From NCBI RefSeq assembly GCF_030551255.1, contig NZ_CP130630.1, forward strand, positions 10,911,001 to 10,975,000: DNA of 64,000 nucleotides. Direction: 5' to 3'. Under the pieces are notes generated by a model. The model was not told where the DNA came from, did not search any database, and was given only the letters and a program-made list of their open reading frames with translations. Positions 1 through 26,757 of this stretch are shown here, in pieces (position 1 is the stretch's first letter; the number at the start of each line of letters is the position of its first letter). The translations under genes were made by a program, and so were the position numbers. The stretch comes from Streptomyces sp. NL15-2K (lineage in GTDB: Bacteria; Actinomycetota; Actinomycetes; Streptomycetales; Streptomycetaceae).

Positions 1-48
1 CCGGTGCTCGGGCAGCGTCCACAGGTCCACCGCCCGCTCGTCGTACAC
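1..48 (-). CDS. Start of an unidentified gene, cut by the window edge
   Basis: A GTG at 46-48 has a good ribosome binding site, AGGAG six bases upstream, and opens a frame that runs off the window. Only 16 codons are visible (MYDERAVDLWTLPEHR), too few to assign a family. It lies 28 bases after the stop of the acyl-CoA dehydrogenase at 77-1879 on the same strand, so it is probably the next gene of the PUFA-synthase-like operon. The start is inferred from the ribosome binding site alone. Confidence 0.45.
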   Translation of the reverse strand, partial: MYDERAVDLWTLPEHR

Positions 49-76
49 GTCGTACTCCTGCTCAGTCAGGCCGGGC

Positions 77-1879
77 TCAGTGGCGGGCGGCGGTCTGGTC
101 GGCGGTGCGGGGTGCGAGCGGGAACTGCCAGTACGAGAAGAGGCGGTCCTCGCGGTGCAGGTGGCGCAGCACCCGCATCGCCTCGTCGATCACGCTCTGG
201 TCGGTGACCGTCTCGTGCGGACGCAGGTGCCCGCGCAGCCGTTCGAGCTGGAGCAGCAGCAGCGCACCGCTCGGCAGCGGCTCCTCCAGCGCCGCGTGCG
301 AGTGGACGAAGGTCAGGACGCACGCGGCGGCGGCGTGCACGAGGCAGTACTCCTTGGCCAGGTCGAACAGCTCGGCGCACTGGCCGAAGTCGCGGCCCAG
401 CCGGGAGCGCAGCTCCTCGCAGCGGGTGGTGAGCGAGCCGAGGTGGTCGAGCAGTTCCGCGGCCACGTCGGCTGCACGCAGCAGCCGTTCGCGCTCGTCG
501 TCGTCCTTGCAGTCCTCCGCGAGGGCACGCAGCCTGCCGATCCCGTCGGGCGCCGCGAGCACCGTGTCGTCCCGCCCCCGGCTGGACAGCTCCTGCTTCC
601 AGGGCTCGTACGCCGGCATGGACCGGGTCATGCCGTACAGGACGGCGGCCCGCTCCTCGGCCGTACGCCGGATGCCGTCGTCCGCCGGTGTGGACGTGGC
701 CGTGGCGAGCAGGGACCGCAGTTGCTGGCCGAGGTTGCGCAGGTTCACCACGGTGTTGCCGTCGGCGAAGTTGGCCACCAGCAGATCGCGCAGCAGCTTC
801 TGGAACATGCCGTAGTGCGGGTGGCCGCGCAGGAAGAAGCGGGCGCCCAGCACCACCGACAGCTGCGACATGCTGCGTTCCATCAGCGTCGGCACGAAGT
901 ACTTGGCCACCGACGACCCGATGCTGACCTGCTCGGGTGTCACCTGAAGGGCGCGCACGGCACCGAGGCTGACCGCGTCGGAGACCATCAGGTCGGCGAA
1001 GCACTCGGTGATCTGGCGTCGGCTGTAGGGGATGTCGCTGACCGGCCGGCCGAACAGGATCCGGCCCTCGGTGAAGTCCAGGGTCAGCCGCAGCCCGGTG
1101 TCGACGGCCGACATGGCAATACCGCTGATCTGGGCACGGGCGATCTGGGTGGCCTTGAGAGCGATCTCCAGCCCCTGGCCCTCGGCACCGATCCGGGCCG
1201 ACTCGGGGACGAACAGCCCGTTCACCCGCAGGCCGCTGATGTCCATGCCGCGCAGTCCGTGCAGCCGCTCGCGGGGCAGCTCCGCCACCGTCCCGACCGG
1301 GGCGGTGCGCTTGTCGAGGACGAAGAGCGAGAAGCCGCCCGGGCCGCCGCGCTCGCTCGTGCGGGCGATCGCGGTCATGCCGTCGGACCAGGTGGCGTTG
1401 CCGATCAGCCACTTCTCGCCGGTCAGCAGATAGCCGCCGTCGACCCGCTCGGCGGTCATCGCGTTGGCCAGCAGGTCACTGCCGTAGGCGCGCTCCGACA
1501 GCCCCCAGGACAGCCGGTAGCCGTGGAGGATGTCGTGGATCATCCGCCGCTTCTGCTCGTCGGTGCCGGCGACCCACAGCGGCATGAAGCCGAGGTTGGT
1601 GATGATCAGGGCGGTGGCGGTGGTCGGATCGCGGCGGGCGACCAGGCGCATCAGGTTGAACTCCGCCTCCACGTCCCCGGACCTGCCGCCCTGCTCGCCG
1701 GGGAGGGCGTACTCGGGGACGCCCCAGGCGCGCAGCGCGCCCACGAAGTCGTACGGGTACGTCTCGCGTTCGTCGTACTCCAGGATCGTGCGGTACGACA
1801 TCGGGCTGTGCGGATCGTGCGGGTCACCGAGGTGTTCCTCGAGCCGCACCGCCAGCTCGGTCAGGTCGGCCTTGGGCAT
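77..1879 (-). CDS. Acyl-CoA dehydrogenase-like flavoprotein (long form, second of a pair)
   Basis: A 600-residue protein of the acyl-CoA dehydrogenase fold. Recognisable family segments are the N-terminal helical domain, the mid-domain run GSDLLA then TGEKWLIGNA (about residues 130-165), the GGPGGFSLFVLD strand, GLRGMDISGL, and a C-terminal helical domain with the R-x-x-FG-type segment ILFGRPVSDIPY. Family members oxidise acyl thioesters to 2,3-enoyl thioesters using FAD. It is about 200 residues longer than ordinary members, the extra length being C-terminal helices. It follows its paralogue (1892-3595) after 12 bases, so the two are probably co-translated and may form a heteromer. In this operon the likely substrate is an ACP- or CoA-bound chain from the PUFA-like synthase, with a desaturation role; that is inference. 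Confidence 0.85.
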   Translation of the reverse strand: MPKADLTELAVRLEEHLGDPHDPHSPMSYRTILEYDERETYPYDFVGALRAWGVPEYALPGEQGGRSGDVEAEFNLMRLVARRDPTTATALIITNLGFMPLWVAGTDEQKRRMIHDILHGYRLSWGLSERAYGSDLLANAMTAERVDGGYLLTGEKWLIGNATWSDGMTAIARTSERGGPGGFSLFVLDKRTAPVGTVAELPRERLHGLRGMDISGLRVNGLFVPESARIGAEGQGLEIALKATQIARAQISGIAMSAVDTGLRLTLDFTEGRILFGRPVSDIPYSRRQITECFADLMVSDAVSLGAVRALQVTPEQVSIGSSVAKYFVPTLMERSMSQLSVVLGARFFLRGHPHYGMFQKLLRDLLVANFADGNTVVNLRNLGQQLRSLLATATSTPADDGIRRTAEERAAVLYGMTRSMPAYEPWKQELSSRGRDDTVLAAPDGIGRLRALAEDCKDDDERERLLRAADVAAELLDHLGSLTTRCEELRSRLGRDFGQCAELFDLAKEYCLVHAAAACVLTFVHSHAALEEPLPSGALLLLQLERLRGHLRPHETVTDQSVIDEAMRVLRHLHREDRLFSYWQFPLAPRTADQTAARH

Positions 1880-1891
1880 GAGCGGGTCTCC

Positions 1892-3595
1892 TCAGAACTC
1901 GGCCGCCACCCGCACCGGGGCGGCGGTGAACAGCAGGCCGCCCTCGCGCAGCGCGGACAGGGCGTCGACGGCGGGCAGCAGGTCGGGGCCGTGGCGGCGC
2001 GGATCGACGCCGTCGGCGCGGGCGAGCAGGAAGGCGAGGGCCGCCCGCAGCCAGCCGGACGCGCCCGCCTCGCCGCCGTACAGCGACCGGTCGCGGTTGT
2101 GCCACCACAGGTGGACGCAGGCGGACGCCGCGTGCAGCCAGGCGTAGCGCTCCGCGAGGTCCACCAGGGCGTTGGGGTCGGCGCCGGGCCGTCGCACGGC
2201 GGCGGCCTCGCAGCCGAACCTGGCGACGGCGCAGGCCAGTTGGTGGACGAGCGCGGCCGTGCGCGGGTCGGCGAGCTGCTCGCAGGCCGCGTCGGCGGCC
2301 TCGGGCAGTCCGCCGAAGACGGGATCCGCGCCCCGCACCACGAGGTCCAGCCGGGTGGGCTCGTACGGCGGAAGCTCCGTGGCGAGGGCGAAGATCCGGT
2401 GCAGGGGGTCCGGGTCGGGCACCTCGTCGCGGGTGACGAGGGTGGGGATCTGGGCCGCGTACGCGCGCAGGTTGGCCAGCGGGCTGGCGTCGATCACCCG
2501 GACCACCGCCGTGTCCCGCTGGAGTTTCTGGAACAGCCCGGCGCCCGGCGCCTGTTCGCGCAGGACCGAGCGGGTGGCGAGCACGGTCGCGCAGCGCCGG
2601 ACCAGCTCGTCGCTCGCCTCCGCCACCACGTGCTTGGCGGCCAGGGCCCACACGCTGAACACCTCGGGTACGACGTGGACGCCTCGCGCTGCGGCCAGCG
2701 CCACCGCGTCCGCCGCCACCAGTGCCGCCGAGGCGACGGCCAGTTCACGGCGGGCGTGGGGCGTCTCGGCCAGGGGCGTTCCGGAGGTGCGCCGCCCTTC
2801 GGTGATACGGCGTTCCTGGGCGAAGCCCAGGGTGAGGCGCAGCGCGCTGTCCGCGATGCCCAGGCTGCCGGCCATGCTCATCACTCGGACGGCCTGCTGG
2901 GCGAGGATCGCCACCTCCAGGCCTTCCCCGACCTTGCCCACCAGGGCGTCCTCGGGCACCGGAAGTCCGGTGAAGCGCAGCCGCGCGGTGTCGACGCCGC
3001 GCATGCCTCCCGTGCGCGGGGCGGGTTCGCGGTGCAGCCCTTCGGCTTCGGGATCCAGCAGATACGCCGAGAAGGCGCCCGGCCCGCGCTCACCGGTGCG
3101 AGCCACCACGTAGACGGCCTCGCAGCGCATGCCGTTGCCGACCATCCACTTCTCGCCGTACAGCCGCCCGTCCTCGTCGAGGCGCACCTCGCCCGCCAGC
3201 AGATCGCTGCCGTGCGCGGCCTCGGTCAGGGCGAACCCCACCGAGCCGCCACGGGTCAGGATCTGAGCCACCCGCCGGCGCTGGTCCTCGGTGCCGTGCA
3301 GCTGGAGGCAGGTCGCGGCGATGATGCTGAACATGGTGCCCGGCATGACGTTCACGTCCCGGCGGGCCGCCGCGCGCACCAGGGTCAGACTGCGGTCGAA
3401 CGAGTCGAACGCACCGCCCCACTCCTCGGGCAGGTAGTTGAGGTGGAAGCCCGCCGAGACCAGCGCGCGGCACAGGTCGTCGGGGTGGGCGTCGGCCTCG
3501 TCCCGTGCCACGGCGGCGGCGAAACCGTACGGGTTGCCCGGGTCCCCGGGAACCCCGAGCAGCTTCTCCACGTCCTCGGGTGTCAGCCCGCTCAT
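1892..3595 (-). CDS. Acyl-CoA dehydrogenase-like flavoprotein (long form, first of a pair)
   Basis: A 567-residue acyl-CoA dehydrogenase-fold protein, paralogous to its downstream neighbour. It has GSDLLAGEVRL, YGEKWMVGNG and RTGERGPGAFSAYLLD in the central beta domain, GGMRGVDTARLRF, and a long C-terminal helical region. The ATG at 3593-3595 overlaps the stop of the PfaD-like gene (ATGA), which fixes the start and implies translational coupling. Family chemistry is FAD-dependent alpha,beta-dehydrogenation of acyl thioesters. A pair of such enzymes beside a fully reducing iterative synthase suggests either post-PKS introduction of double bonds or supply of an unsaturated starter; the sequence does not decide between them. 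The catalytic base could not be placed with confidence by eye. Confidence 0.85.
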   Translation of the reverse strand: MSGLTPEDVEKLLGVPGDPGNPYGFAAAVARDEADAHPDDLCRALVSAGFHLNYLPEEWGGAFDSFDRSLTLVRAAARRDVNVMPGTMFSIIAATCLQLHGTEDQRRRVAQILTRGGSVGFALTEAAHGSDLLAGEVRLDEDGRLYGEKWMVGNGMRCEAVYVVARTGERGPGAFSAYLLDPEAEGLHREPAPRTGGMRGVDTARLRFTGLPVPEDALVGKVGEGLEVAILAQQAVRVMSMAGSLGIADSALRLTLGFAQERRITEGRRTSGTPLAETPHARRELAVASAALVAADAVALAAARGVHVVPEVFSVWALAAKHVVAEASDELVRRCATVLATRSVLREQAPGAGLFQKLQRDTAVVRVIDASPLANLRAYAAQIPTLVTRDEVPDPDPLHRIFALATELPPYEPTRLDLVVRGADPVFGGLPEAADAACEQLADPRTAALVHQLACAVARFGCEAAAVRRPGADPNALVDLAERYAWLHAASACVHLWWHNRDRSLYGGEAGASGWLRAALAFLLARADGVDPRRHGPDLLPAVDALSALREGGLLFTAAPVRVAAEF

Positions 3596-5211
3596 CCGGC
3601 GGCCTCCATGAGAGCGGCCGGCTCCAGCGGAACCGGGCGGTAGTCCGCAGCGGACGCCGGGATGGTCACGCCGGCCGTGGCCAGCTGGGCGATCCGGGTG
3701 TGGAAGGCCGCGCCCCGCATCAGATGGTGGGCGACATCGGCCACCGTCCTGTTCTCGGGCGTCTTGAGGTAACTGCCGGACACCCAGGCGTTGAAGCTGC
3801 CCATCGCCGGGCCGCACCAGATCTGGTAGTCGGCCGTCCGGTCGGACTGCCCGGTCACCGCCCAGCGCGAGGCCATGCCCAGGTACCAGCGGAACACCAG
3901 CGCCATCTTCCGTTTGGGGCTGTCGGAGGCCCGGCGCAGCTGGTCCGGGTCACGCCGGCTGAAGTACTCGACGCACTCCTTCCAGACGTCCTCCAGCGGA
4001 CGCCTAAAGACCTGGGACTCCACCCGCTCGCGCTCCTCGCCGGGCAGCGCGTGCAGGCCGTCGTACGCCTGGTACAGCCGGTACAGCTGCTGCGCCCGCA
4101 TCGCGAACATCGAGCCCCGGCGCAGTACCTGGAGTTCCACGCCCATCTCGAACATGTCGGCCGCCGGCGCCATCACGCAGTCCGTGACGTCCGCCTGCGC
4201 GAGCAGCGCGCGGGCGGCCGAGGAGGTGCCGGACTCCAGGCAGGACTGGTTGACGGAACCCGTCACCACATAGGCGGCGCCCATCGCGAAGGCCGCGGCG
4301 ACGGCGGTCGGAGTGCCGAGGCCGCCGGCCGCCCCGACCCGGATCGGGGTGGCGTAGCGGTGCTCGTGCTGGATCTGGTCGCGCAGCCGCAGGATCACCG
4401 GGAAGAGCGCCGGGAGCGGACGGCGGTCGGTGTGACCGCCGGAGTCCGCCTCCACGGTGATGTCGTCGGCGAGCGGCAGGTGGTGGGCGAGCTGCGCCTG
4501 CTCCTGGGTGATCAGACCGTCCCGCAGCAGGGTGTCGACCAGCGTGGCCGGGGCCGGGCGCATGAACCGCTCGGCGGTCTCGGCCCGGGACACCTTGGCG
4601 ATGACCTTGTGGTCGGCGATGATCCGCCCCGAGGGATCCCGCCTGAGCCCGGCCAGCCGGTAGCGGACCAGATGCGGGGTCAGGCCGAGGAAGGCGGAGG
4701 CCTCCACACAGCGCACGCCGTGCCGCAGGAACAACTCGACCGCCTCCCGCTCCAGCCGTTCCTCGCTGGGGCTGTGGATCAGGTTGACGGCGTACGGCAG
4801 CCCGGGGATCTCGGCGGCGAACCGGGCCAGCGCCTTCTCGATGGTCCGCGGCAGCAGGCCGGCCGCGCCGAAGGAGGCGAGGAAGCCCTGCTCGGCCAGG
4901 GCGATCACCAGGTCGGCGGAGGCGATACCGCCGGCCATCGCGCCGGCCATGTAGGACTGCCGTACTCCGTGCGCGGCGCGGAACTCGGCCGAGCCGAGCC
5001 GGTGCGGGGGCAGGGCGGGGGCGGCGGCCAGGATGCCCGGCCCGTCCCCGGCGGCGGCCGCCGTGCCTCCGGCGGCCGCGCCGACGCCCTGCGCCGTGGA
5101 CACGATGAAGCAGGGCTGCTCCACCTGGCTCAGCACCTGGTGGATCCCGGTCGGATCGACGCTCGGGTACCCGTCTCCGTACCAGCGGAGCGGGGCCTGG
5201 GTCGTGTTCAT
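3592..5211 (-). CDS. pfaD: PfaD-like trans-acting enoyl reductase
   Basis: A 539-residue FMN-dependent TIM-barrel protein of the 2-nitropropane dioxygenase/PfaD family. The N-terminus (RWYGDGYPSV then a QPCFIVST strand), the FMN phosphate-binding segment GAAGGLGTPTAVAAAFAMGA and the C-terminal half with SFNAWVSGSYL are characteristic of PUFA-synthase enoyl reductases. In known systems PfaD acts in trans on the ACP-bound enoyl intermediates of the PfaA/PfaC machinery. The ATG at 5209-5211 is chosen because homology begins there; the frame is open further upstream but reads nothing family-like. It follows the PfaC-like gene by 32 bases and overlaps the next gene by 4 bases. Confidence 0.93.
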   Translation of the reverse strand: MNTTQAPLRWYGDGYPSVDPTGIHQVLSQVEQPCFIVSTAQGVGAAAGGTAAAAGDGPGILAAAPALPPHRLGSAEFRAAHGVRQSYMAGAMAGGIASADLVIALAEQGFLASFGAAGLLPRTIEKALARFAAEIPGLPYAVNLIHSPSEERLEREAVELFLRHGVRCVEASAFLGLTPHLVRYRLAGLRRDPSGRIIADHKVIAKVSRAETAERFMRPAPATLVDTLLRDGLITQEQAQLAHHLPLADDITVEADSGGHTDRRPLPALFPVILRLRDQIQHEHRYATPIRVGAAGGLGTPTAVAAAFAMGAAYVVTGSVNQSCLESGTSSAARALLAQADVTDCVMAPAADMFEMGVELQVLRRGSMFAMRAQQLYRLYQAYDGLHALPGEERERVESQVFRRPLEDVWKECVEYFSRRDPDQLRRASDSPKRKMALVFRWYLGMASRWAVTGQSDRTADYQIWCGPAMGSFNAWVSGSYLKTPENRTVADVAHHLMRGAAFHTRIAQLATAGVTIPASAADYRPVPLEPAALMEAAG

Positions 5212-5243
5212 GGGTAGACGATCTCCTCGGCTCTGCCGGACGG

Positions 5244-8200
5244 TCAGTCGGCTTCGGGGCGGACTTCGATGGCCACGTCGGTGAGTTCGTAGATGCGCAG
5301 GCCCGGCTTCCACAGGTCCGCGTCGGCGATCAGCAGCAGCCGGTCCGCCTCCTTGCGGACCTCCTTGACGTGCACGTCGAAGAACAGCTCGCGGTCGTCG
5401 CGCAGGATCTGCCCCCGGTACTTCCAGGACATCTCCACGTCGGTGGCCATGGCGAAGCGGGGCCGGGGCATGCCCTCGGCGAGGTTCTGTTCCAGGACGA
5501 ACAGGCGCAGCGCCTGCAGCACCGCCTCGACACCCAGCGAGCCGGGCATCACCGGGTCGCGGTGGAAGTGGCAGTCGAAGTACCACTCGTCGGGGCGGAT
5601 GCCGCGGTGCCCGTGCAGGTAGCCCGCGCCGTGGCGGCCTCCGTCCGCGACCAGGTCGACCCGGTCCACCAGGTCGAACCGGCCGCCGGGCAGGTGGAGT
5701 TCGCCGCCCTCGGTGTCCCGGAAGGCGGGGGAGTCCTGGGTCAGGTCGATCCGCCGCACCCGGCCCGCCGCCGGCTGCTCCGCCTCGATCCACGGCTGGA
5801 CGTAGGTGCCGCTGTCGAGGCCCACCTGGTTGGACAGGGCGGCGGCGCTGAAGTACCCGAAGAGCGACTCGCCGGTGTAGAAGACCTCGCCGTCGGCGGA
5901 CAGCTCGTACGAGAAGTTCTGCAGCACCGCTCCGGACACCACGCTCGTCATCAGCAGCTTCGAGTGGTGGCGGATGGTCTTGCCGCGCAGGTCGATGTCC
6001 TTGACCAGCGTGGCGCGGCCGTCGAGGTTGCGGATGGAGTACTCCTCCTGCGGCTCGCGCAGGGTGGCGCCCAGGTAGTAGCCGAGGAAGATGGCTGCCT
6101 GCAGCGAGCTCTCCATGTACACGCAGTTCGGCATGTACGGCGAGGAGTTCTCGCGGTAGTACCAGGCGTCGTCCGGCGAGTCGTACTCGGTGACCATCTC
6201 CGAACCGGGGCTCAGGTCGCCGCGCGTGCCCTTGAGGGACATGACCCGGTCGACGAACTGGAAGTCCCCGTTGGGGATGTAGGGGGCGCGGGAGTCACGG
6301 TAGATCTCGAACTCCGGGCCCATGGCCATGTCCAGCAGGCCCTTGGCGGAGTGGGCCAGGTGCAGCTCGTTGATCATGGCGGGCTCGCCGTCGCGGTTAC
6401 GGCGGCCGAGGAACCGCGGCACCCCGCCGGTCTCCGGCCGGTACGGCGTGCCGGGCTTCTCCACGATCTGCAGGCCGAGGTTCTGCATCCGCACCACCGG
6501 CTTGTCCCCGAGGTAGATCAGGACGTCCGCGATCACCGTGGGCCTCGGCAGCAGGGTCAGCTCGGTGACCTCCACCTCGTAGCGGATCTCGGCGTCCTTC
6601 GGGGTGACCTGGCCGCGCACCTGGACGTCGATGCGCCGGTCGGTCACCGTCTGGAAGCGCGCGTCCGGCAGCGTGAGGTGCATGCCCTGGTGCATCAGGT
6701 AGATCTGCAGCAGTTGGACGGCACCCTCGGCGATCAGGGAGCCGGCGAGTACCGGGTCGTCCGGGAAGTGGCAGGTGAAGTACCAGCCGTCCGGCTGGAG
6801 ATGCTTGACGGCGCTGAGCGAGCCCAGCTCGCACGGCCCGCCCTTGCGGTCGATGGTGACCTCGTCGATCATGCGCAGCCGCTCGTCCGGCAGACGCAGC
6901 GCCGGGTTGATGCCCGGGTCCTGCGCGTGGTCGGGGCCGAAGACCTCGCCGGGCTTGCCCTGCGCGAGCAACTCCAGGTCGGCGGCGTCGAGTTGGTGCT
7001 TGCGGGCGTAGGCGAGGGGCTTGAACGTGCCCTTCGGCAGAGCTGCGCGCCGGGCCCGGTCCTTGTCGGTCAGGACGACGCCGAGCGGGGTGTCCAGCTC
7101 CTGCTTGCTGAAGAAGCCGGCGCAGGCGTCACGGAGTTCGAGGATCAGCTCGTCGTCCGCATAGCAGTCGTAGCTGAAGAAGAAGATCGTGGTGTCGCCC
7201 TGGCGGACGAACCGGTCGATCGAGATCTCGTAGCGCAGAGTCTGCCCGGTCGTGGGCAGCCCCCCGCGGAAGGTCAGCGAGCTGTCGAGCAACCGGTAGA
7301 CCCGCTCGCCCTTGTTGCGGAAGTCGATGCCGAGGTAGCTGACGAGCAGCAGGTCGCACTGGCCCGACTCCACGGTCACCGCGGGCGGCACCCCGCCGTC
7401 CACGGCGTACCAGGCGTCCTCGGGCACGACGTACTCGGTGGTGATGCGAGAGGGCTCCAGGACACCGGGCTTCGCGTCCAGCTCGGTGACCCGGGTGACG
7501 AAGTGGTACGGCGGTGCAGGCAGCCGCACCCGGGCCGCGAAGGTGTCGATCTCGGCGAACTCGGGGCCGAACACGTTGGCCAAAGAACCGGTCGCGAACT
7601 CCAGCAGGTCGGCCTCGTCCCAGATGACGCCCTCGACCACGCCGTCGCGGGCCTTGTCCTGTGGGGGCGTTGCGGGCGGCGGCGGGGGCGTCGTGGGCGT
7701 CGTTGCGGACCCGCTGGGCAGCGCCGCGGGGCGGTCGGCGGCCGGAGGGGATACGGCGGGTGGGGCTGGGCGGTGGACGGTCGCGGGCGGCGCCGGGGCG
7801 GGCCGGGCGCCGGCCGACTGGGCGTCGAGCAGGGCCTCGGCGCGCTCCAGGGTCGCGGACTGCAGTACGCGGTGCGTCTCCATCACGACGCCGTGGGCGG
7901 CCAGCATGCCCTGGCGCAACTCCCGCACCAGGTCGGCGGCGGGCCTTCGGCCGGGGCCGGCCGACGGTCCGGGGGCCGGGGCGGTGGCGGGTGGGGTGGC
8001 GGACGACGGGGTTGCCGGGGGCTGAACGGGCGCGGACGGGGCCGTCGCGGTCGGGGCGCCGGCCACGGATGGCTGCGGGCTGCCCCAGGGAAGGGCCGTG
8101 ATGGGGTCTCCGCCGAAGGTGATCACCTCGGAGACCTCTAGCGTCGGATCGGCGGGCATGGCGGGTGGCTCCTCCGGCGGAACGGACAGGGCGGGGACGG

Positions 8201-13097: not shown

Positions 13098-13180
13098 GGA
13101 ACTTGGTCCCTCCAGGGTTCCGGGGGCCCGGCGGGGGCCTCGATGAGGCCCCCGCCGGGCCCGCCAGTCCAGCCGTCGGC

Positions 13181-16100
13181 TCAGCGGCTCGCGAACTTGG
13201 CGGCCAGCTGCGGGGTGGACACGAGGGACAGCCCCGCGAACCGGAGCAGCACGCGGCCGTCCGGGGCGCAGGCCGAGACGTCGACCGTGGCGGACGCACC
13301 GTTCGCCGAGACCGGCTCCACGACCACGACGAACGGCTCGCCGTCCGGCAGCGCCTCGTACAACTCGGCCCGCGCCACCGACATCGGCAGGCTCGCCGTG
13401 TCGCGGTGCCGGCGCATCCACACCAGCGCGGCCTGCAGCAGCAGGTCGGCGGTGCCGGGTGCGTACCGGCTGCTCGCGAACGCACCGCCCGCGGGCCGGT
13501 GTTCCGGCAGCGCGCACTCGATCACCAGGCGCGACTCGTCGTCCCGCAGCACCCGGCGCAGACCGCGCAGCGACTCGCCGTGGAAGAGGGTGCCGTCGGA
13601 GTAGCAGGCCTGCGCGTCGCTGCCGTCGCCCAGGGCGGGCAGCCCGGTCACGCGCTGCGGCTGCGGCCGTGCGCCGCCGCCGAGGAGCACCCGCGCCGCG
13701 TAGTGCGGACGGACCGTCCCGTCAGCAGTGGTCGAGCGGATCGCCACGTCGGCCTCGGCGCCGTCGGGTGTCGGGTCGAAGGAGAGCTGGAACCGGCTGC
13801 CGTCGAGCGAGTCGTCGAAGATCACACCCTTGTGGACCGCGAAGTCCCGGATCTCCGCGACGCCGCCGCCGGTCAGCCGCTCGACGGCGCCCGCCGCCCA
13901 GCCCAGGGCCGCTGCGGCGGGCAGCACGGGCGCGTCCCCGATGACATGGTCGGCGACGAGCGGCTCGCCGACGAGGGACGCCAGGTCCCGCTCCAGGACG
14001 ACCGGCGAGGCGGGCGCGGCCTGCTCGCGCTCGGACAGGGGCGTGGTCGGTCCGAGGACCGTGACCACGTCACCGCCGCGCTCGGGCGCGAACTGCTCGG
14101 CGAAGAACCGGACTCCGGTGTCCTCGGGGATGAGGCTGATCCCGCGCTCCTTGAAGACCGCCTTGATCTGCGGCGACACCATGCCGCTGTCCCAGGCGCC
14201 CCAGTTGAGGGATGTCACGTGGCTCTGCGGGTGGCTCCGCTTCCAGGCGGCAGCCCAGGAGTTGAGCACCTCGTTGGCCATGGCGTAGTCCGACTGGCCG
14301 CGGTTGCCGAAGAATCCGGCGACCGACGAGAACAGCACTACGTGCCGCAGCCGATCGGCGGGCAGCGCCGCGACGACCGAGCGCAGACCGCCCAGCTTGA
14401 CGGAGAAGACACGATCGATCTCGGCCGCCTTCTTCGCGGAGATCAGCTGGTCCGCGAGGACGCCCGCGCCGTGCACCACACCGGTGATCCGCTCCCGGTA
14501 CGGCGCCAGGGCCGCGGCGGTCGCGGCGGCGTCGGTGATGTCCACCGCCAGGTACTCGACCTCGCTGCCCGCAGTCCGGATCGCGGCCAGAGTCTCCCGC
14601 ACCTCGCGTTCGCCGACGACCGCCTGGTAGAGCTGCTCCACCCGCTTGGGGGTCGGCTTCTCGCCCGCCTGCTTCAGCTGGTCGACGGCGGCGGCCTTCA
14701 GTGCGCCCTGGTCGGTCAGCCCGCGGGCCCACTCCGGCTCCTCACCCAGTGCCGTACGGCCCAGGAGCAGCACCCCCGGACGGTGCGCGGCGGCGAGGGC
14801 CTCGGCGCAGCGGGCGGTGATGCCGCGTCCGCCGCCGGTGACGACCAGCAGGTCGTCGGAGGTGAGCGGTACGGCGTCCGCGCTCGGTGCGGCCGGCTCC
14901 TCGCCGAGGGTCAGCGCGACCCGGCGGACGCCGTCACGGCCCACCTGCACCGGCCCGGCCGCGGCGTCGTACACCTCCTCCAGCACCAGATCGGCGGCCT
15001 CCCCTGCACCGAGGGCGGGCGTCAGGTCCAGGGCCCGGCAGAAGAGTTCGGGCGCCTCCACCGCGAGGGTCTTCAGCAGACCGCCGACGCCTCCGGCGGG
15101 CACCGCCTCCTCGGCGACCCCGCCGAGACCGAAGGCCCCGTCCAGCTGGGTGACCGTGACGAAAGCGGCCCGCTCACCCGTTTCCGCGGCGGCCGTCAGC
15201 GGGCCCACCACGTGCTTGGCGATCAGCAGGGTGTGCGCGAGCCTGCGCACGCCCTCGGCCCAGGCGAGAGAGTCCGCGGCGGCGAAGCCGAGGACGAGGT
15301 GCACTCGGTCCGTGCCCAGCTCCTCGAGGCGCGAGGCGAGTTCATTGGCGCCCCAGCTCGAGAGCGCGCCGTCCGCGCCGCCGCTGATCCGCTGCGGCAC
15401 GCCGGGCAGCCGCAGCACGCGCAGCTGCCAGCCGGCGGCGACGAGCCGGCCCGCCGCGGCCTCGGCGACCGCACTGCCGTCGTCGACGACGATCGCGGCC
15501 GCGCCCTGCGGATACGCCCCCACCAGCCGGTCCGGCACGGGCAGGTCCACCAGCGCGGCCTGGCCCCGGCCGAGCGCGGCGGTGACGGGAGCCGCGGCGG
15601 GGGCCGGCTCGGTGGCGGCAGATCCGATGGCGGTCGTCTCGGCGGCGGTCGGCTCGGTGACGGCCGACTCGGCGGTGGTCGCCTCAGGAGCAGGCCGCTC
15701 CCCGGACGCGGCACCGGAGAGCCCGGTGACGAAGCCGACGATGTCGCTCAGGGTGCGCAGTTCGGCGAGTTGTTCGGGGCCGACGGGGGTGGGGCTGGGG
15801 AAGTTTTCTTGGAGGACGCCCATGATTTCGACGCGTTTGATGGAGTCGATGCCGAGGTCGGCCTCGACGTCCATCCCCAGGTCGAGCATGTCGGCGGGGT
15901 AGCCGGTCTTGGTGGCGACGACGTCGAGGAGGACGGCGCGTACGTCGTCGGCGGAGGGCGCGGCTGCCGGCGCCGGGCCGGGTTCGGCGGCGGCCGTGGT
16001 GCTTGGGTCGGACGCGGGGGCAGGGGCGGGGGCGGCGCCCGGCTCGCGGAGTTCGAGGACGAAGCCGACGATCTCGTTCAGGGTGCGGAGTTCGGCGAGT

Positions 16101-19100
16101 TGTTCGGGGCCGACGGGGGTGGGGCTGGGGAAGTTTTCTTGGAGGACGCCCATGATTTCGACGCGTTTGATGGAGTCGATGCCGAGGTCGGCCTCGACGT
16201 CCATCCCCAGGTCGAGCGTCTCGGCCGGGTAGCCGGTCTTCTCCGACACGATGCCGAGCAGTGCGGCAGCGACGTCCTCCGTGTTGACGACCTGGACCGG
16301 GGCGGTCTGCGTCGCCGTCGCGGTGGCCGAGGCCTGCGTACGGGCGCTCTCCCCGCCGAGACTCAGGACGAAGCCGACGATCTCGCTCAGCGTCCGCAGC
16401 TCGGCGAGTTGTTCGGGGCCGACGGGGGTGGGGCTGGGGAAGCGTTCCTGGAGGACGCCCATGATTTCGACGCGCTTGATGGAGTCGATACCCAAGTCCG
16501 CCTCCAGGTCCATGCCGAGGTCGAGCATTTCCGCCGGGTAGCCGGTCTTTTCCGAGACGACCGCGAGCAGCGCGCCCTCCACGTCGGCGGCAGATGCCCC
16601 GGACGACGGCGGCGGCTCGGGGGCGGGGGCGGCAGATTCGTCCGGCGCGGGACCGGCCGGGGGCATCCCGGCCGCGGTCTCCTCCGGGCGGGCCGGAGCG
16701 GGCGGCTCGACGGCCGGAACCGCCGGAGCGGGCGGGACTGCCGGCGCGGTCAAAGCAGTCAAAGCGGGCGGAGCGGGCGGCACGGCCGGAGCAGCCGGGG
16801 CCACGGGCGACGCGGGAGCCGCCGGCGCGGCCGGAGTCACCGGCTCGGTGGGAGCCACCGGCGTGGACGGTGCCGTCGGCGCCGACGTGCCCAGCTCCAT
16901 GGCCGCCAGGTCCCGCAGGATCTCGTTGGCCCGCAGATGCGTGCGGCCGATGGCAAGGCCGTGCTCCTTGACGGTGGCCACGCCGGGGAACACCTCATGG
17001 ACACGGCCCTGCTCGTCGGCCCGCTCGAGGATCCCCATCAGGCGCTGCGCGCCCGCCAGTTGACCGTTGAGGTAGTCGTCGTGCAGGGCCAGGTGATCGG
17101 CGATCACCTCGGACAGCCGGTCGTTGCCGGGGGCGGGTGTCGGCTGGCGTTCTTCTTCCACGAGTTCGCTCTCCAGGACGTCTTCGGTAACGGGCGGCGC
17201 CGCGGGCACCACCTCCGGTACGGCGGGCCGCACGGCGACAGCGGTCGCGGCGGTCACCGGGACCGGCGCGGACGAGGCTGCCGCCGTCGGCGCGGGCGAC
17301 ACCTCGGCCGCGGGCGCGCCGGCGGCCACCGCCGGAGCGGTCTCGGCCACCGCGGTCTTTGCGACTGCGGTCTCGGCCACTGCGGGTACCGCCTCGGCGG
17401 CCTCCGGCCGAGCCACCCGGTAGCCGTTCTCCAGCGCCTCGCGGTACGCCGCCTCACGTGCCTCCGGCACGTGGTTGATGCCGTTCAGCGGTACGGTCAT
17501 GCCCTTGACCGGCTCGGTGACCGGCGGCGCGGCCACGTAACGGTCCTCGGTGGTCAACGGCAGGCCCAGCACCGCGAGTTGGGCCACCGCACGCTTCAGC
17601 GAGAGCTCGGCGTCACCCTTGGGGCCCGGGTCGAGCTGCACGGCGAAGTGCTCGCGGTCGCCGAGGATGCGGCGCACCAGCTGGGTCAGCACGCCCTTCG
17701 GCCCGAACTCCACGAACGTGCGGAAGCCCGCCGCGTACATCTCCTCGACCCGCTCGGCGAACTGCACCGGCTTGACGAGCTGGTCGACCAGGGTCCGCCG
17801 GTTGGCGTCGACGTCCGAACCGTACGAGGCACCGGGCGAGTTGGCGTACACCGGCTGCCGCGGCTCGCGGATCTCCGCGTCGGCCACGCGCCGCCCGAAC
17901 GCCTCCACCGCGTGGGCCACGAACGGCGTGTGGAACGCCGCCGAGACCGGCAGCCGCACCGCCCGTACGCCGGCCGCGTCCGCCGCCCGGACCAGCCGCT
18001 CCACGGCGTCGGTGGCCCCGCCGAGCACGACCTGGTCGGGGGCGTTGCGGTTGCAGACCGTCAGCTCGGGGTGCTCGGCGAGCAGGCGCTCGACCTGCTC
18101 CGCGGAAGCGGTGACCGCGGCCATCGCCCCGGCGTCGAAGTCCGGGTCGGCGGGCGGTGCCATGGCGGCACCCCTCGCCCGGGCCAGAGCGACGTACGTG
18201 TCGTCGTCGATCGCGCCGGCGGCCCACAGGGCGGCCAGCTCACCGAAGCTGTGCCCGAGGAAACCGTCGGCGGCGAAGCCCAGTTCGCTCAGGTACCGGA
18301 AGTGGCCGGCCGCCAGGGCGCCGATCGCGGGCTGGGCGTACTCGGTGCGGCGCAGCTCGGTCTCGTACGCCGCGCGCGTGTCCTCGTCGAAGGCGGGCGG
18401 CGGGAACGCGACGCGGGACAGGGGGAGTTCGTGGTCCGCGAAAGCCGCGTTCGCCCGGTCGAAGGCCGCCCGCAGGGGAGGCAGCGCGAGCACCGCGGTC
18501 CGGCCGGGCTCGACGTACTGGCTGCCCTGGCCCGCGAAGAGCGCGCCCACCTTGCCGGTGGGGGCGGCCGAGCGGCGGAAGTAGACGCCCTTGGGGTGGG
18601 ACCAGGCCTCCTCGGCGGGCTTCGCGCGCAGTTCGGTCACGGCGAGGGCGCGCAGCTCGGCGAGCTCGGCGTCGGAGCGGGCGACGAGAGCGAGCCGGGG
18701 ATGGCCGGCCGGAGCGGGCTCGGTGCGCGGCTCCGCGCCGCTTTCCAGCGCCCGCACCAGGCCGTTCATGTCAGGTTCATGCCATACATATACCTGGCTC
18801 ACAGGAGACATGACCCGCAGATCGTCCCCGTCGCCGTGCTCCTGAAGCACCACATGGAAGTTGGTGCCGCCGAAGCCGAACGACGAGACGGCCGCGCGCC
18901 GTTCGGGCCGGTGCGGGTCGCGGATCCACGGGCGGGCCTGTGCGCTGACGTAGAACGGGCTCTCGGCCCAGTCGATCGCCGGGTTCGGCCGCTCCACGTT
19001 GATGGTGGGCGGCAGCACCTTGTGGTGCAGGGCCAGCGCCAGTTTGATCATGCCGGCCGCGCCCGCGGCCGCCTTGGTGTGGCCGATCTGCGACTTCACG

Positions 19101-20251
19101 CTGCCGACCGCGGCGAACTGCCGCTCCTTCGAGTACTCCGACACCACCTCCGTCAGCGCCGACAGCTCGGTCGCCTCGCCGACCGCCGTGCCGGTGCCGT
19201 GCGCCTCGAACAGCTCGATCGAGTCGGGGGAGACGTCGGCGTCCTCGTACGCGCGGCGCAGGGCCGTCATCTGCCCCTCCTTGCGCGGGGCGTAGATGGA
19301 CTTGAACCGGCCGTCGCTGGAGGAGCCGATGCCGCGCAGCACCGCGTAGATCCGGTTGCCGTCCCGCTCGGCGTCGGAGAGCCGGCGCAGCGCCAGCATG
19401 CCGATGCCCTCACCGATGAGGGTGCCGTCGGCACTCTCGTCGAAGGGGCGGATGCGGCCGGTCTTGGAGAACGCGGGCGTCTTGCTGAAGCACATGTACA
19501 TGAAGATGGTGTTCTCGGCGTCGCAGCCGCCCACCAGCATCGTGTCGGAGCGCCCCTCCAGCAGATCGCTGACCGCCGACTTCACCGCGCCCAGCGAACT
19601 GGCGCAGGCCGCGTCGATGGTCATGTTGGTGCCGCCGAGGTCGAGGCGGTTGGCGATGCGGCCGGCGACGACGTTGCCCAGCATGCCCGGGAAGGAGTTC
19701 TCCTCCCAGGGCGCGAAGGCCAGCTTGAACTTCTCCGCGATCTCCTCGGCGTCCCGCTGCGTGAGGCCGCAGGAACGCACGACCTCCTTCAGGACAGGGG
19801 TCTGCAGGCGGGCGGTCAGCGGCTGGGTGAGCTGGTTGGCGCCGGTCACACCGAGGACCACGCCGGTGCGGGAGGGGTCGTACCAGTCCTGGTCGGCACC
19901 GGCGTCCTTCAGCAGGTCGCGGGCCACGACGAGGCTCAGCAGCTGCAGGACGTCGGTGACTTCGAGGGTGTTCGGGGGCAGCCCGAACTCGAGCGGGTTG
20001 AAGGGGACGGTGGGGATGAAACCGCCGCGCTTGGAGTACGTCTTGTCGGGAGCGGCGGGGTCGGAGTCGTAGTGCTCCGACACGTCCCAGTGGGTGGCCG
20101 GGACGTCCTCGATGCAGTCGGCGGCGGAGACCACGTTCGCCCAGAACTCGCGCAGATCACGCGACTTGGGGTAGAGGGCGGACAGCCCGACGATGGCGAT
20201 GGGGTCTCGGGCGAGCCGGCGGTCGAGGTCGGACGGGGACGAAGCGTTCAC
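13181..20251 (-). CDS. pfaA: PfaA-like multidomain synthase: KS-AT-ACP-ACP-ACP-KR-DH
   Basis: A 2356-residue subunit. The ketosynthase (about 15-470) has DAACASSL (Cys216), EAHGTGTAVGE and GHTKAAAG. The acyltransferase (about 575-870) has LFAGQGSQY and GHSFGE (Ser668). Three tandem ACPs carry DSIKRVEIMG with phosphopantetheine serines at 1257, 1360 and 1470, separated by Ala/Pro-rich linkers. The ketoreductase (about 1560-2070) has VVTGGGRGI and Tyr1989 in YAMANEVLNSW. The C-terminal hot-dog dehydratase has DHVIGDAPVLP (His2102), where the usual Gly of HxxxGxxxxP is Asp. This is the PfaA domain order. Start is GTG at 20249-20251 with GAGAG upstream. Chain extension, ketoreduction and first dehydration happen here; CLF, DH-DH and enoyl reduction come from the two following genes. 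Confidence 0.95.
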   Translation of the reverse strand: MNASSPSDLDRRLARDPIAIVGLSALYPKSRDLREFWANVVSAADCIEDVPATHWDVSEHYDSDPAAPDKTYSKRGGFIPTVPFNPLEFGLPPNTLEVTDVLQLLSLVVARDLLKDAGADQDWYDPSRTGVVLGVTGANQLTQPLTARLQTPVLKEVVRSCGLTQRDAEEIAEKFKLAFAPWEENSFPGMLGNVVAGRIANRLDLGGTNMTIDAACASSLGAVKSAVSDLLEGRSDTMLVGGCDAENTIFMYMCFSKTPAFSKTGRIRPFDESADGTLIGEGIGMLALRRLSDAERDGNRIYAVLRGIGSSSDGRFKSIYAPRKEGQMTALRRAYEDADVSPDSIELFEAHGTGTAVGEATELSALTEVVSEYSKERQFAAVGSVKSQIGHTKAAAGAAGMIKLALALHHKVLPPTINVERPNPAIDWAESPFYVSAQARPWIRDPHRPERRAAVSSFGFGGTNFHVVLQEHGDGDDLRVMSPVSQVYVWHEPDMNGLVRALESGAEPRTEPAPAGHPRLALVARSDAELAELRALAVTELRAKPAEEAWSHPKGVYFRRSAAPTGKVGALFAGQGSQYVEPGRTAVLALPPLRAAFDRANAAFADHELPLSRVAFPPPAFDEDTRAAYETELRRTEYAQPAIGALAAGHFRYLSELGFAADGFLGHSFGELAALWAAGAIDDDTYVALARARGAAMAPPADPDFDAGAMAAVTASAEQVERLLAEHPELTVCNRNAPDQVVLGGATDAVERLVRAADAAGVRAVRLPVSAAFHTPFVAHAVEAFGRRVADAEIREPRQPVYANSPGASYGSDVDANRRTLVDQLVKPVQFAERVEEMYAAGFRTFVEFGPKGVLTQLVRRILGDREHFAVQLDPGPKGDAELSLKRAVAQLAVLGLPLTTEDRYVAAPPVTEPVKGMTVPLNGINHVPEAREAAYREALENGYRVARPEAAEAVPAVAETAVAKTAVAETAPAVAAGAPAAEVSPAPTAAASSAPVPVTAATAVAVRPAVPEVVPAAPPVTEDVLESELVEEERQPTPAPGNDRLSEVIADHLALHDDYLNGQLAGAQRLMGILERADEQGRVHEVFPGVATVKEHGLAIGRTHLRANEILRDLAAMELGTSAPTAPSTPVAPTEPVTPAAPAAPASPVAPAAPAVPPAPPALTALTAPAVPPAPAVPAVEPPAPARPEETAAGMPPAGPAPDESAAPAPEPPPSSGASAADVEGALLAVVSEKTGYPAEMLDLGMDLEADLGIDSIKRVEIMGVLQERFPSPTPVGPEQLAELRTLSEIVGFVLSLGGESARTQASATATATQTAPVQVVNTEDVAAALLGIVSEKTGYPAETLDLGMDVEADLGIDSIKRVEIMGVLQENFPSPTPVGPEQLAELRTLNEIVGFVLELREPGAAPAPAPASDPSTTAAAEPGPAPAAAPSADDVRAVLLDVVATKTGYPADMLDLGMDVEADLGIDSIKRVEIMGVLQENFPSPTPVGPEQLAELRTLSDIVGFVTGLSGAASGERPAPEATTAESAVTEPTAAETTAIGSAATEPAPAAAPVTAALGRGQAALVDLPVPDRLVGAYPQGAAAIVVDDGSAVAEAAAGRLVAAGWQLRVLRLPGVPQRISGGADGALSSWGANELASRLEELGTDRVHLVLGFAAADSLAWAEGVRRLAHTLLIAKHVVGPLTAAAETGERAAFVTVTQLDGAFGLGGVAEEAVPAGGVGGLLKTLAVEAPELFCRALDLTPALGAGEAADLVLEEVYDAAAGPVQVGRDGVRRVALTLGEEPAAPSADAVPLTSDDLLVVTGGGRGITARCAEALAAAHRPGVLLLGRTALGEEPEWARGLTDQGALKAAAVDQLKQAGEKPTPKRVEQLYQAVVGEREVRETLAAIRTAGSEVEYLAVDITDAAATAAALAPYRERITGVVHGAGVLADQLISAKKAAEIDRVFSVKLGGLRSVVAALPADRLRHVVLFSSVAGFFGNRGQSDYAMANEVLNSWAAAWKRSHPQSHVTSLNWGAWDSGMVSPQIKAVFKERGISLIPEDTGVRFFAEQFAPERGGDVVTVLGPTTPLSEREQAAPASPVVLERDLASLVGEPLVADHVIGDAPVLPAAAALGWAAGAVERLTGGGVAEIRDFAVHKGVIFDDSLDGSRFQLSFDPTPDGAEADVAIRSTTADGTVRPHYAARVLLGGGARPQPQRVTGLPALGDGSDAQACYSDGTLFHGESLRGLRRVLRDDESRLVIECALPEHRPAGGAFASSRYAPGTADLLLQAALVWMRRHRDTASLPMSVARAELYEALPDGEPFVVVVEPVSANGASATVDVSACAPDGRVLLRFAGLSLVSTPQLAAKFASR
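15741..16571 (-). repeat. Three tandem ACP-coding repeats, two with an identical 129-bp block
   Basis: The three ACP domains of the PfaA-like gene recur with spacings of 330 and 309 bp. The second and third (15759-15887 and 16089-16217) share a 129-bp block with no difference that I can see, while the first ACP (around 16400-16530) differs at scattered silent and other positions. Identity at the DNA level, including synonymous sites, points to recent duplication or gene conversion. Confidence 0.85.
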
Positions 20252-20349
20252 GGCGAGGCTCTCTTGTTCGGACGGCGGGGCCTGGTTTCGGCCCGGGTCG
20301 GTTCGGGGGCCCTTCGGGTGACGCGCAGGGGGGAGTGGGCAACGGCCGT

Positions 20350-21207
20350 TCAGGCCGCGTTGAGCAACGGGGCGATCACTCCGAGGGAGTCGGGGCGGCT
20401 GAGCATCGTGTAGTGGTCACCGGGGCATCTGTGCAGGGTCAGGCCCTGTGGGGCGAGCGGCCGCCAGCCGAGCGTGGGGTCGTCGGGGATCAGGCTCCGC
20501 TCGGCCGTGACCAGCACCAGGGGCAGTGGTGCGGGGCCGGGCCGGTGCGGGGCCGTCAGGCGGTTGTTGCGCAGCAGCCCGTCCACGTACGTGTCGTAGA
20601 GCTTGCGCAGCCCCGGCAGCGGGGTGTCCGGGTGCAGGGCCCCGGCCGCGACCGCCGTGTCGAGTACGACGGTGAGGCCGTCGTCGACCCCGCGCCCGGC
20701 GAGCCGGCCGGGGGCCAGTCCGATCGGGCGACCCCGCTTGGCCCCCAGGTACATGGCGAACCAGCCGAGGAGCAGATCGGGTTCGAGGGCGTCATCGGGC
20801 TGCTGGTACTCCTCGGTGGGCGCGATGCTGTCGAGGAGCACCAGGCGCTCGGGACACCGCACGGCGGGTGTCTTGTGGCTCATCGCGAGCGCCAGTACTC
20901 CGCCGAAGGACCAACCGGCGAGGGTGTACGGGCCTGTGACCGGCCCCATCGCGGTGAGCAGCCGGTCGGCCAGGGCCTCGACGGTCGTCGCCGCCCTGCC
21001 CCCGGTCAGCGCCGCCTCCGCGTACTCGGGGACCGATGCCAGATCCAGCACGGTCAGTCCGTCGCCCTCCGGCAGCGCGTCGGCCAGACCCCGGTGGACC
21101 TGGGCCGGGAGCGCGCCGGGGTGGACGAGGTACACGGTCCGCCGGCCGGGCGCCGCTGTCCGGAACGGCTGGGCCACCGGCGGCCGTGCGTCACGCGGCG
21201 GCCGCAC
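20350..21207 (-). CDS. Alpha/beta-hydrolase thioesterase
   Basis: A 285-residue alpha/beta hydrolase of the PKS/NRPS thioesterase type. The nucleophile elbow GWSFGG follows YTLA at about residue 95-100, and the catalytic His is in CPGDHYTML near the C-terminus. The VYLVHPG strand near the N-terminus is also typical. Such enzymes hydrolyse or transfer acyl chains from carrier proteins. Start is GTG at 21205-21207, inside the end of the ACP gene (17-bp overlap), with GAGGAGAG about nine bases upstream. A discrete thioesterase instead of the C-terminal acyltransferase seen in some PUFA synthases suggests release as free acid or transfer to a small acceptor; this is inference. Confidence 0.88.
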   Translation of the reverse strand: MRPPRDARPPVAQPFRTAAPGRRTVYLVHPGALPAQVHRGLADALPEGDGLTVLDLASVPEYAEAALTGGRAATTVEALADRLLTAMGPVTGPYTLAGWSFGGVLALAMSHKTPAVRCPERLVLLDSIAPTEEYQQPDDALEPDLLLGWFAMYLGAKRGRPIGLAPGRLAGRGVDDGLTVVLDTAVAAGALHPDTPLPGLRKLYDTYVDGLLRNNRLTAPHRPGPAPLPLVLVTAERSLIPDDPTLGWRPLAPQGLTLHRCPGDHYTMLSRPDSLGVIAPLLNAA

Positions 21208-21457
21208 GTCGATCGCTCTCCTCGGCCAGGTAGGCCGCCAGGTCCTTGACCGTCGGGTGGTACCAGAGGGTCGTCGTGCTCAGCTCGAAGCCGAGCCAGT
21301 TCTCCAACTCGCCCGCGAGGATGAGCGCTTCGGTCGAGTCCAGGTCCAGCTCGTCGAAGTACACCTCGCGCGAGACCTCTGTGGTCGCCACGCCCAGGCG
21401 GTGGGCGATCTTTTCGATCAGCCAGTCCTCGGCCTCACGAGTGGTCACTTTGGGCAT
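21191..21457 (-). CDS. Stand-alone acyl carrier protein
   Basis: An 88-residue acyl carrier protein. The phosphopantetheine attachment motif is DLDSTEAL (Ser about residue 41), flanked by the usual helices (EKIAHRLGV upstream, LENWLGFEL downstream). ATG at 21455-21457 is preceded by AGGAAGGACG, a good ribosome binding site. It is the first gene of the minus-strand operon and overlaps the thioesterase gene. The three ACPs in the PfaA-like protein read DSIKRVE instead, so this free ACP is of a different type. It could carry a starter unit, shuttle the product to the acyl-CoA dehydrogenase-like enzymes, or serve the thioesterase. Confidence 0.92.
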   Translation of the reverse strand: MPKVTTREAEDWLIEKIAHRLGVATTEVSREVYFDELDLDSTEALILAGELENWLGFELSTTTLWYHPTVKDLAAYLAEESDRRAAAA

Positions 21458-21757
21458 GGTGCGTCGTCCTTCCTTGGGGAGGGTGTGCGCAGACCGTCGC
21501 AGCCAGGCCCGGGCAGGCGGGCGGCGGACATCTCGGCGACGGTCTGTCCCGGCTGACGTGCGACATCGCACGGGGAGTCAGGCGGGGCGAAGAGGGTGGG
21601 AGTGAGCCGGATTCCGTTCTTGGTCATCGGCGCCGGGCGTGGCGCCCGAACAACTGTCGTGCCTTCGGAGTGGCCGCCCGAAGCACGCGGGTCACAGTCT
21701 TGCCACGTGGAGTAATCCTGGACAACCGCTCTTCCGCAGAGTGGAAAGAAAATTGCG
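21458..21757 (-). promoter_or_regulatory. Untranslated leader/promoter region of the PUFA-like operon
   Basis: This 300-bp stretch between the ACP start and the repeat block shows no convincing gene. A minus-strand frame of about 130 codons crosses it, but its composition is not protein-like and it overlaps the ACP start. On the minus strand just downstream of the repeats TTGTCC occurs around 21717-21722 and could act as a -35 element, but no clear -10 follows. The promoter is therefore probably activator-dependent and weak on its own. Confidence 0.5.
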
Positions 21758-21815: not shown

Positions 21816-21831
21816 TTTGTGGAGAAAACGT

Positions 21832-25399: not shown

Positions 25400-25481
25400 C
25401 CTTGTTCGTCTCCCGAAGGCTTCGTCTCCAAGCCTCTTCTGTGTGGGCTTCACGCGCTGTGGGCTGCACACGCCCCGGGTC

Positions 25482-26678: not shown

Positions 26679-26757
26679 CCGTGAGCTCCCGTCATGTGGG
26701 GGTCTCATCCCTCAGTAGACCCTTGTCGAACGATCATTCGCAATTCAGGGCGATACG

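Follow-up and report, generated by a model that had tools for sequence, protein, structure and literature searches.

Actinobacterial gene clusters of the polyunsaturated fatty acid (PUFA) synthase type were on record in 2011, with no product demonstrated for them (PMC3098273; papers given by PMC number are cited from parts of their text). Lipopeptide gene clusters carry cassettes with acyl-CoA dehydrogenases (ACADs), to which the double bonds of the lipid tail have been attributed, one or two genes accounting for one or two double bonds (PMC9113097). Here we describe an operon at the left end of a 64,000-nucleotide stretch of DNA from Streptomyces sp. NL15-2K (contig NZ_CP130630.1, positions 10,911,001 to 10,975,000, referred to as the window), which belongs to a genome of 12.4 Mb on three contigs. 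The operon encodes a PUFA-type synthase together with a free acyl carrier protein (ACP) and two long ACADs, and it is part of a conserved actinobacterial cluster. Judged from the sequence, we favour on balance the view that this cluster combines a PUFA-type iterative lipid synthase with a block of genes for post-synthase desaturation and export, and its product is probably an exported, highly unsaturated lipid. What is new is that a PUFA-type synthase occurs together with the acyl-ACP desaturation module known from lipopeptide clusters, each of the two kinds being already known.

Layout of the operon

All operon genes are located on the minus strand, in the 5′ to 3′ order AraC regulator, ACP, thioesterase (TE), PfaA, PfaC, PfaD, ACAD1, ACAD2 and phosphopantetheinyl transferase (PPTase). 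Positions to the left of the window are numbered such that 0 is the base preceding window base 1. Domains are abbreviated as KS (ketosynthase), CLF (chain-length factor), AT (acyltransferase), KR (ketoreductase) and DH (dehydratase); FAAL stands for fatty acyl-AMP ligase.

21191..21457, minus strand: free ACP, 88 amino acids, of the type of FAAL/ACAD lipopeptide-initiation cassettes (PF00550, 44.9 bits, scored on the longer open reading frame 21194-21571)
20350..21207, minus strand: stand-alone TE with a GWSFG serine motif (PF00975, 54.3 bits)
13181..20251, minus strand: PfaA-like subunit KS-AT-ACP-ACP-ACP-KR-DH, 2356 amino acids (TIGR02813, Pfam domains, motifs)
5244..13097, minus strand: PfaC-like subunit with fused PfaB-type AT, KS-CLF-AT-DH-DH, 2617 amino acids (Pfam, NCBIfam on the longer open reading frame from 13517, motifs)
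3592..5211, minus strand: PfaD-like enoyl reductase, 539 amino acids (TIGR02814, scored on the longer open reading frame from 5793)
1892..3595, minus strand: ACAD1, long acyl-CoA/ACP dehydrogenase-like protein, 567 amino acids, overlapping the pfaD stop codon (PF02770, PF00441, PF02771)
77..1879, minus strand: ACAD2, second long acyl-CoA/ACP dehydrogenase-like protein, 600 amino acids (PF00441, PF02770, PF02771)
48 to -635, minus strand: PfaE-like PPTase, 227 amino acids, with its first codons at 1..48 (GTG at 48) and the remainder beyond the left window edge
-645 to -1946, left of the window: flavoprotein (flavin adenine dinucleotide, FAD)
-1954 to -2610, opposite strand, left of the window: MerR regulator
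-2710 to -3138, left of the window: DUF3291 protein
-3182 to -4630, left of the window: major facilitator superfamily (MFS) transporter

The Pfam matches and coordinates bear out the free ACP, the thioesterase and the two long acyl-CoA dehydrogenase-like proteins that an earlier note on this DNA had proposed, and the five genes from the PPTase to the MFS transporter lie where it expected the operon to continue past the left edge. Seven long open reading frames on the plus strand were tested and had no Pfam match; they are regarded as shadows of the minus-strand genes.

The synthase core

PfaA scored 1900.9 bits with TIGR02813 (NCBIfam cut-off 1010.1) and PfaD 646.9 bits with TIGR02814 (cut-off 449.25). 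The Pfam domains of PfaA are a KS, an AT, three ACPs, a KR and a dehydratase of the polyketide synthase (PKS) type. PfaC contains a KS-CLF and two FabA-type dehydratases, with two CHF..DPV motifs in the NL15-2K cluster; its KS carries the motifs DAACSS, HATGT and NIGH, and in its second KS-like domain the active cysteine is missing by eye, pointing to a chain-length factor. Residues 1200-1571 of the PfaC reading frame matched the PfaB model TIGR02816 at 102.7 bits, below the cut-off of 144.3, and the GYSLGE serine motif of this PfaB-like AT is present in 26 of the 27 clusters found in the survey described below, the exception being genome G110, where the compared stretch ends. Because of its KS, CLF, PfaB-matching AT and two DH domains, PfaC is best described as a fused PfaBC of the order KS-CLF-AT-DH-DH. 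The likely start is the ATG at 13097, which is preceded by GGAGGGA, and the best chain in the PDB is 6riw ORF10 (550.8 bits, residues 2-897). Motifs of both KSs, the AT, the three ACPs, the KR, the PfaB-like AT and the two FabA-type dehydratases were all found in the NL15-2K cluster.

The complete PfaA/PfaC/PfaD core claimed in the earlier note thus stands, PfaA and PfaD lying above their cut-offs and the domain set of PfaC being intact, and the KS, AT, ACP, KR and DH motifs, whose loss the note had named as an objection to it, are retained. Two absences that it reported did not hold up. Other genes were said to take the place of PfaB, although a PfaB-like AT is fused within PfaC, and no phosphopantetheinyl transferase was seen. 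The PPTase gene begins at window base 48 with its body beyond the left edge (L007:6368-7048), and its product matched AASDHPPT_N at 30.3 bits against a cut-off of 27, while its ACPS (22.7 bits, cut-off 25) and HetI-like (62.1 bits, cut-off 370) scores remained below threshold. The two reported absences thus go back to a fusion that was overlooked and to a gene truncated at the edge of the window.

Two further PfaD-like proteins of this genome (L132-L135; C1 at 9.57 and 0.69 Mb) lie among apparent multimodular synthases, one of them adjoining a PPTase. They were rejected as markers of additional PUFA clusters, as their surroundings gave many KS-type hits at 27-39% identity and no stretch best matched by PfaC.

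The ACADs and the free ACP resemble a lipopeptide module

Relatives of the two ACADs were found in cassettes of Burkholderia glumae and of Streptomyces NBC_01244 and NBC_00963. There two of them stand side by side, flanked by a fatty acyl-AMP ligase and a free ACP, with nonribosomal peptide synthetase (NRPS) genes alongside. All 11 cassette ACADs match ACAD1/ACAD2 at 145-310 bits and 31-38% identity, compared to a maximum of 96.7 bits among 30 other ACADs encoded in the NL15-2K genome. Both ACAD1 and ACAD2 score best against the cassette-first ACADs. In a maximum-likelihood tree of 41 ACADs (both ACADs from 13 of the 27 clusters, two plasmid copies and the 11 cassette ACADs), ACAD1, ACAD2, cassette-first and cassette-second proteins form four separate branches with support of 99-100. 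Aligned with five cassette ACPs the free ACP is 31-37% identical, and with one type II ACP it reaches 19%, whereas the ACPs of PfaA gave no BLAST match to it at E ≤ 10 and aligned poorly (13-14%). It also matches the N-terminal ACP of Pks13, which accepts its chain from a FAAL. Neither a fatty acyl-AMP ligase nor an NRPS condensation domain was detected among the cluster genes scanned or in the block annotated on two plasmids. As both the ACADs and the ACP resemble their cassette relatives, the ACP and the ACAD pair were apparently inherited as one unit, without the FAAL and the NRPS.

The column that usually holds the catalytic glutamate is occupied by aspartate in all aligned homologues of ACAD1 (26/26, the over-long reading frame of genome G208 having been dropped from this count) and ACAD2 (27/27), and neither protein has a glutamate at the alternative helix-G site. 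At the same column the cassette-first ACADs have aspartate (6/6) and the cassette-second ACADs histidine (5/5). Since both proteins keep an acidic group, ACAD1 and ACAD2 could both be active, in contrast to the picture given by the cassette pairs. The aspartate was considered as a unique hallmark of the two proteins and had to be discarded as such: there were 54 ACAD matches in this genome, ACAD1 and ACAD2 among them, and the 30 best others have glutamate in 12 cases, aspartate in three and another residue in 15.

HxcO of the calcium-dependent antibiotic pathway is an acyl-ACP oxidase/epoxidase. The altered base of both ACADs, in a position where the second cassette ACADs have histidine, might accordingly be read as the sign of an HxcO-like pair yielding an epoxy or hydroxy lipid instead of a diene. 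We consider this very unlikely, because aspartate alone does not mark an epoxidase, as the three other aspartate-bearing ACADs of the genome demonstrate, and because ACADs in such a position have been tied to double bonds (PMC9113097).

Flavoprotein, thioesterase and DUF3291 protein

The flavoprotein has full-length relatives in R. johnstonii and A. thermophilum (36% and 39% identity), whose genes have cfa-like or methyltransferase, DUF1365 and ChrR/sigma genes as neighbours. Such surroundings are the setting of UfaD (PMC7380195). The best match in the PDB was the amine oxidase LkcE (E 2.3e-24). Neither a UfaM methylase gene nor one for the partner UfaO, a DUF1365 protein, was found among the cluster genes scanned.

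The thioesterase carries the GWSFG motif in all 19 of the clusters that have this gene. The DUF3291 protein was assigned via its homologue in genome G301 (PF11695, 23.7 bits, cut-off 23.5), to which it is 86% identical over 133 residues; L083 and L107 were dropped from the alignment of this family. Its AlphaFold2 model, compared with the 1000 top-ranked Foldseek chains, has a predicted fold like that of the antibiotic biosynthesis monooxygenases (ABM), and the ABM-fold matches include polyketide cyclases and oxygenases. Homology to the af470/Fma-ABM oxygenases was considered and dropped: hhalign did not detect it (probability of 1.3% against PF13826-type proteins), and the agreement is limited to the fold class.

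These findings could also be taken to mean that an LkcE-like flavoprotein and an ABM-fold protein cyclise or rearrange the chain, resulting in a carbocyclic or heterocyclic product and not in a linear polyene. LkcE being the top PDB match and polyketide cyclases occurring among the matches of the DUF3291 model would fit such a route; however, the full-length relatives of the flavoprotein sit in UfaD-type surroundings and no annotated gene of the cluster resembles an amine source, which makes cyclisation quite unlikely in our opinion.

Conservation and distribution of the cluster

A sample of 392 genomes of the genus, including NL15-2K itself, was searched with ACAD1 at E ≤ 1e-80. Homologues were detected in 30 genomes, and in 27 of these they are part of a PUFA-type cluster, so that the arrangement occurs in 26 further genomes with varying order and content. 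Species with an ACAD1 homologue include S. calvus, S. galbus, S. toxytricini, S. coffeae, S. fungicidicus and S. graminofaciens. In the three remaining genomes (G406, G178, G335) ACAD1 belongs to an FkbH/AMP-ligase/ACAD/ACAD/ACP/PKS cluster instead. As annotated in G335, that cluster (L130/L131; L126/L127 and L128/L129 are the corresponding loci of the other two genomes) encodes FkbH, a DUF6059 protein, an AMP ligase, two long ACADs, an ACP, a KS-AT-ACP synthase, a KASIII-like protein, an ACP, a PPTase and an FrsA-like hydrolase.

A core of nine genes follows one order in 21/27 clusters, apart from a missing TE or PPTase or cut ends. The free ACP is present in 24 clusters, and the other three are truncated by the limits of the stretch compared. 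The flavoprotein is found in 26 clusters, the DUF3291 protein in 25 (one partial) and the MerR regulator in 21. In 21 clusters the flavoprotein gene comes next after that of ACAD2 or of the PPTase, and in five (G253, G168, G011, G394, G308) it is 5′ of the ACP; in G110 the flavoprotein side is outside the stretch compared. An MFS transporter with at least 71% identity is encoded in 17 of the 27. The TE was detected in 19 clusters; three are cut, and five (G270, G325, G105, G264, G027) have no detectable TE despite a covered ACP-PfaA junction. The PPTase was found in 25 clusters and not in G135 and G289.

A second group of clusters (L116, L119, L121, L123, L125; genomes G110, G168, G011, G394, G308) encodes an aldehyde dehydrogenase and an af470-like oxygenase downstream, some of them together with glutamate-mutase-like and B12-binding proteins (Pfam on the G394 members).

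Plasmid-borne copies of the core, searched for with ACAD1, occur in S. globosus, Streptomyces sp. NBC_00503 and S. albogriseolus; these copies have no PPTase at the usual place. In S. globosus the plasmid-borne cluster (L144 32408-41686) has an IS3 transposase and type I-E CRISPR-associated genes in its neighbourhood. A class-wide census using ACAD2 (E ≤ 1e-100, three candidates scored per genome) detected the NL15-2K genome only (1/394). The family extends beyond a single genus, however, since in two genomes from a different family PfaD has an ACAD1 relative next to it (L017, L019) and ACAD1 homologues occur in Kribbella, Kitasatospora and Actinacidiphila.

In a tree of PfaD with 32 rows, one branch (support 99/98) separates 18 ACAD-associated rows from 13 rows in which no ACADs were seen, a label that refers to about 1.5 kb on each side for most of the 13 and to a wider stretch only for G092, G045, G035, G048 and G069. 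L132 and L134 were dropped because of a stop in the extracted frame, and L015 was left unlabelled as its contig ends. This topology fits a single gain of the accessory block, which would be the simplest reading; others remain compatible with the tree.

The distribution bears on whether the cluster might simply be an ordinary PUFA (secondary lipid) synthase supplying membrane or storage lipid, with the ACADs, TE and flavoprotein serving turnover or editing. The domain set of the core is indeed that of eicosapentaenoic and docosahexaenoic acid synthases, and a TE could free acids for re-esterification. Nevertheless, the accessory block recurs together with a transporter, and free ACP, ACADs, flavoprotein and DUF3291 protein were all absent from the stretches examined of five other PUFA-type clusters (G092, G045, G048, G069 and G035, the last of which ends at a contig end). 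In addition, the ACADs and the ACP are nearest to biosynthetic cassettes. An ordinary PUFA synthase is thus unlikely. The preference of the earlier note for a specific lipid over a membrane PUFA has become the better-supported reading, given the relatives of the ACP and ACADs in lipopeptide modules and the recurrence of the UfaD-like flavoprotein, TE and MFS transporter; the terms polyene and secreted, which it also used, remain conjectural.

Proposed pathway

PfaA, PfaBC and PfaD would build a long, partly unsaturated chain. PfaB has been described as a terminal acyltransferase (PMC12895367), and here the fused PfaB-type AT may load the free ACP with the completed chain. On this carrier ACAD1 and ACAD2 would dehydrogenate the chain at the alpha,beta and perhaps the gamma,delta position, and the flavoprotein, by analogy with UfaD, could add a further double bond beside an existing one, so that the unsaturation would perhaps be conjugated. 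The TE presumably releases the acid, and clusters without a TE would need something else for this step. The DUF3291 protein might oxygenate or cyclise the product, which the MFS transporter would finally export. A more specific proposal, which we put forward tentatively as a possibility with less than even chances, is that a PUFA synthase lineage captured a lipopeptide ACP, two ACADs with aspartate-based catalysis and a UfaD-type desaturase, and that it makes an exported conjugated polyene through desaturation on a stand-alone ACP and not through double bonds left during elongation.

Several observations weigh against a desaturation and export block as outlined here. The base is aspartate and not glutamate in both ACAD1 and ACAD2. 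The TE and the PPTase appear to be dispensable or replaced, as they are missing from five and two clusters, respectively. The match to the amine oxidase LkcE implies that the flavoprotein may carry out other chemistry. For the lipopeptide ACADs themselves, Baltz reports the absence of mechanistic studies (PMC9113097). In the case of rotihibin, desaturation was assigned to two ACADs, citing ramoplanin, and yet the tail is cis-2-decenoyl and the second step is thought to be non-essential (PMC8552735), so that two ACAD genes need not correspond to two double bonds.

Region upstream of the operon

Upstream of the ACP gene the following two features were located.

21665..21755, minus strand: non-coding stretch, putative promoter or operator region, alike by eye
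21880..22776, minus strand: AraC-family regulator, upstream of the operon (HTH_18, 77.3 bits)

The AraC regulator is found in only seven of the 27 clusters, NL15-2K counted. The non-coding stretch (CTTTCCACTCT.CGGAAGAG ... GGCAAGACTGTG.CCTGCGTGCTTCGGGCGGCCACTC) looks similar by eye across clusters of this AraC type, the sequences of eight clusters having been compared. It is present as a single copy in the NL15-2K genome, and a comparison with Rfam yielded no match at the gathering score. At 21757-21816 an 18-base direct repeat occurs in three copies with 21-base spacing, possibly representing regulator binding sites. As a shared regulatory signature this repeat was rejected, its core pattern being present only in the NL15-2K cluster among the clusters compared. 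A role of the genes for a pyruvyl transferase (25482-26708) and an FAD-dependent oxidoreductase (23960-25471), suggested by chitinimine, was likewise dismissed, as neither belongs to a family common to at least three clusters; for the pyruvyl transferase this comparison is partial, with the NL15-2K cluster taken to window position 26000.

Significance

The cluster is conserved, compact and partly plasmid-borne, and it is joined to an ACAD module for whose relatives in lipopeptide clusters mechanistic work is missing (PMC9113097). With about eleven defined genes it offers a way to a new unsaturated lipid and to the action of paired ACADs on ACP-bound chains. A literature search in open-licence PMC full texts found no publication on this cluster.

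Comparison with known systems

With furan fatty acid synthesis (PMC7380195) the cluster shares an FAD protein, the identity of 36-39% having been measured to proteins in a UfaD setting and not to UfaD itself; in contrast to that system, no UfaM or UfaO partner was seen here. Zeamine, fabclavine, megapolipeptin and chitinimine have in common with our cluster PUFA-type machinery for a specialised lipid and a stand-alone TE, and most of the Burkholderiales clade of PUFA-like hybrids also has a PPTase gene (PMC13291983). The zeamine-type hybrids, however, join NRPS/PKS lines, and Streptomyces clade V in the same account is a metallophore-type hybrid; the only dehydrogenase mentioned in the main text of that paper, as cited, is a lactate dehydrogenase.

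The FAAL-ACAD(-ACAD)-ACP cassettes of taromycin, malacidin and rotihibin, and of ramoplanin as cited there (PMC9113097, PMC8552735), likewise contain two long ACADs side by side and a free ACP of matching type. They differ from the cluster described here in that the latter has a PUFA-type source of the chain, a TE as exit, no FAAL or NRPS found, and aspartate in both ACADs compared to histidine in the second cassette ACADs (5/5).

The synthase itself is closest to the Pfa types A-T of Shulse and Allen (PMC3098273), with which it has in common a tandem-ACP PfaA, a KS-CLF PfaC, two FabA-like DHs, an AT resembling PfaB, PfaD and a PPTase. With KS-CLF-AT-DH-DH, its PfaBC has the domain order of their Type D, whereas Type L of S. 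coelicolor has pfaD at the 5′ end and the AT after DH2 (KS-CLF-DH2-AT), pfaD being 3′ of pfaC in our case. To these Pfa synthases the cluster adds the free ACP, the TE, the two ACADs, the UfaD-like flavoprotein, the DUF3291 protein and the MFS transporter.

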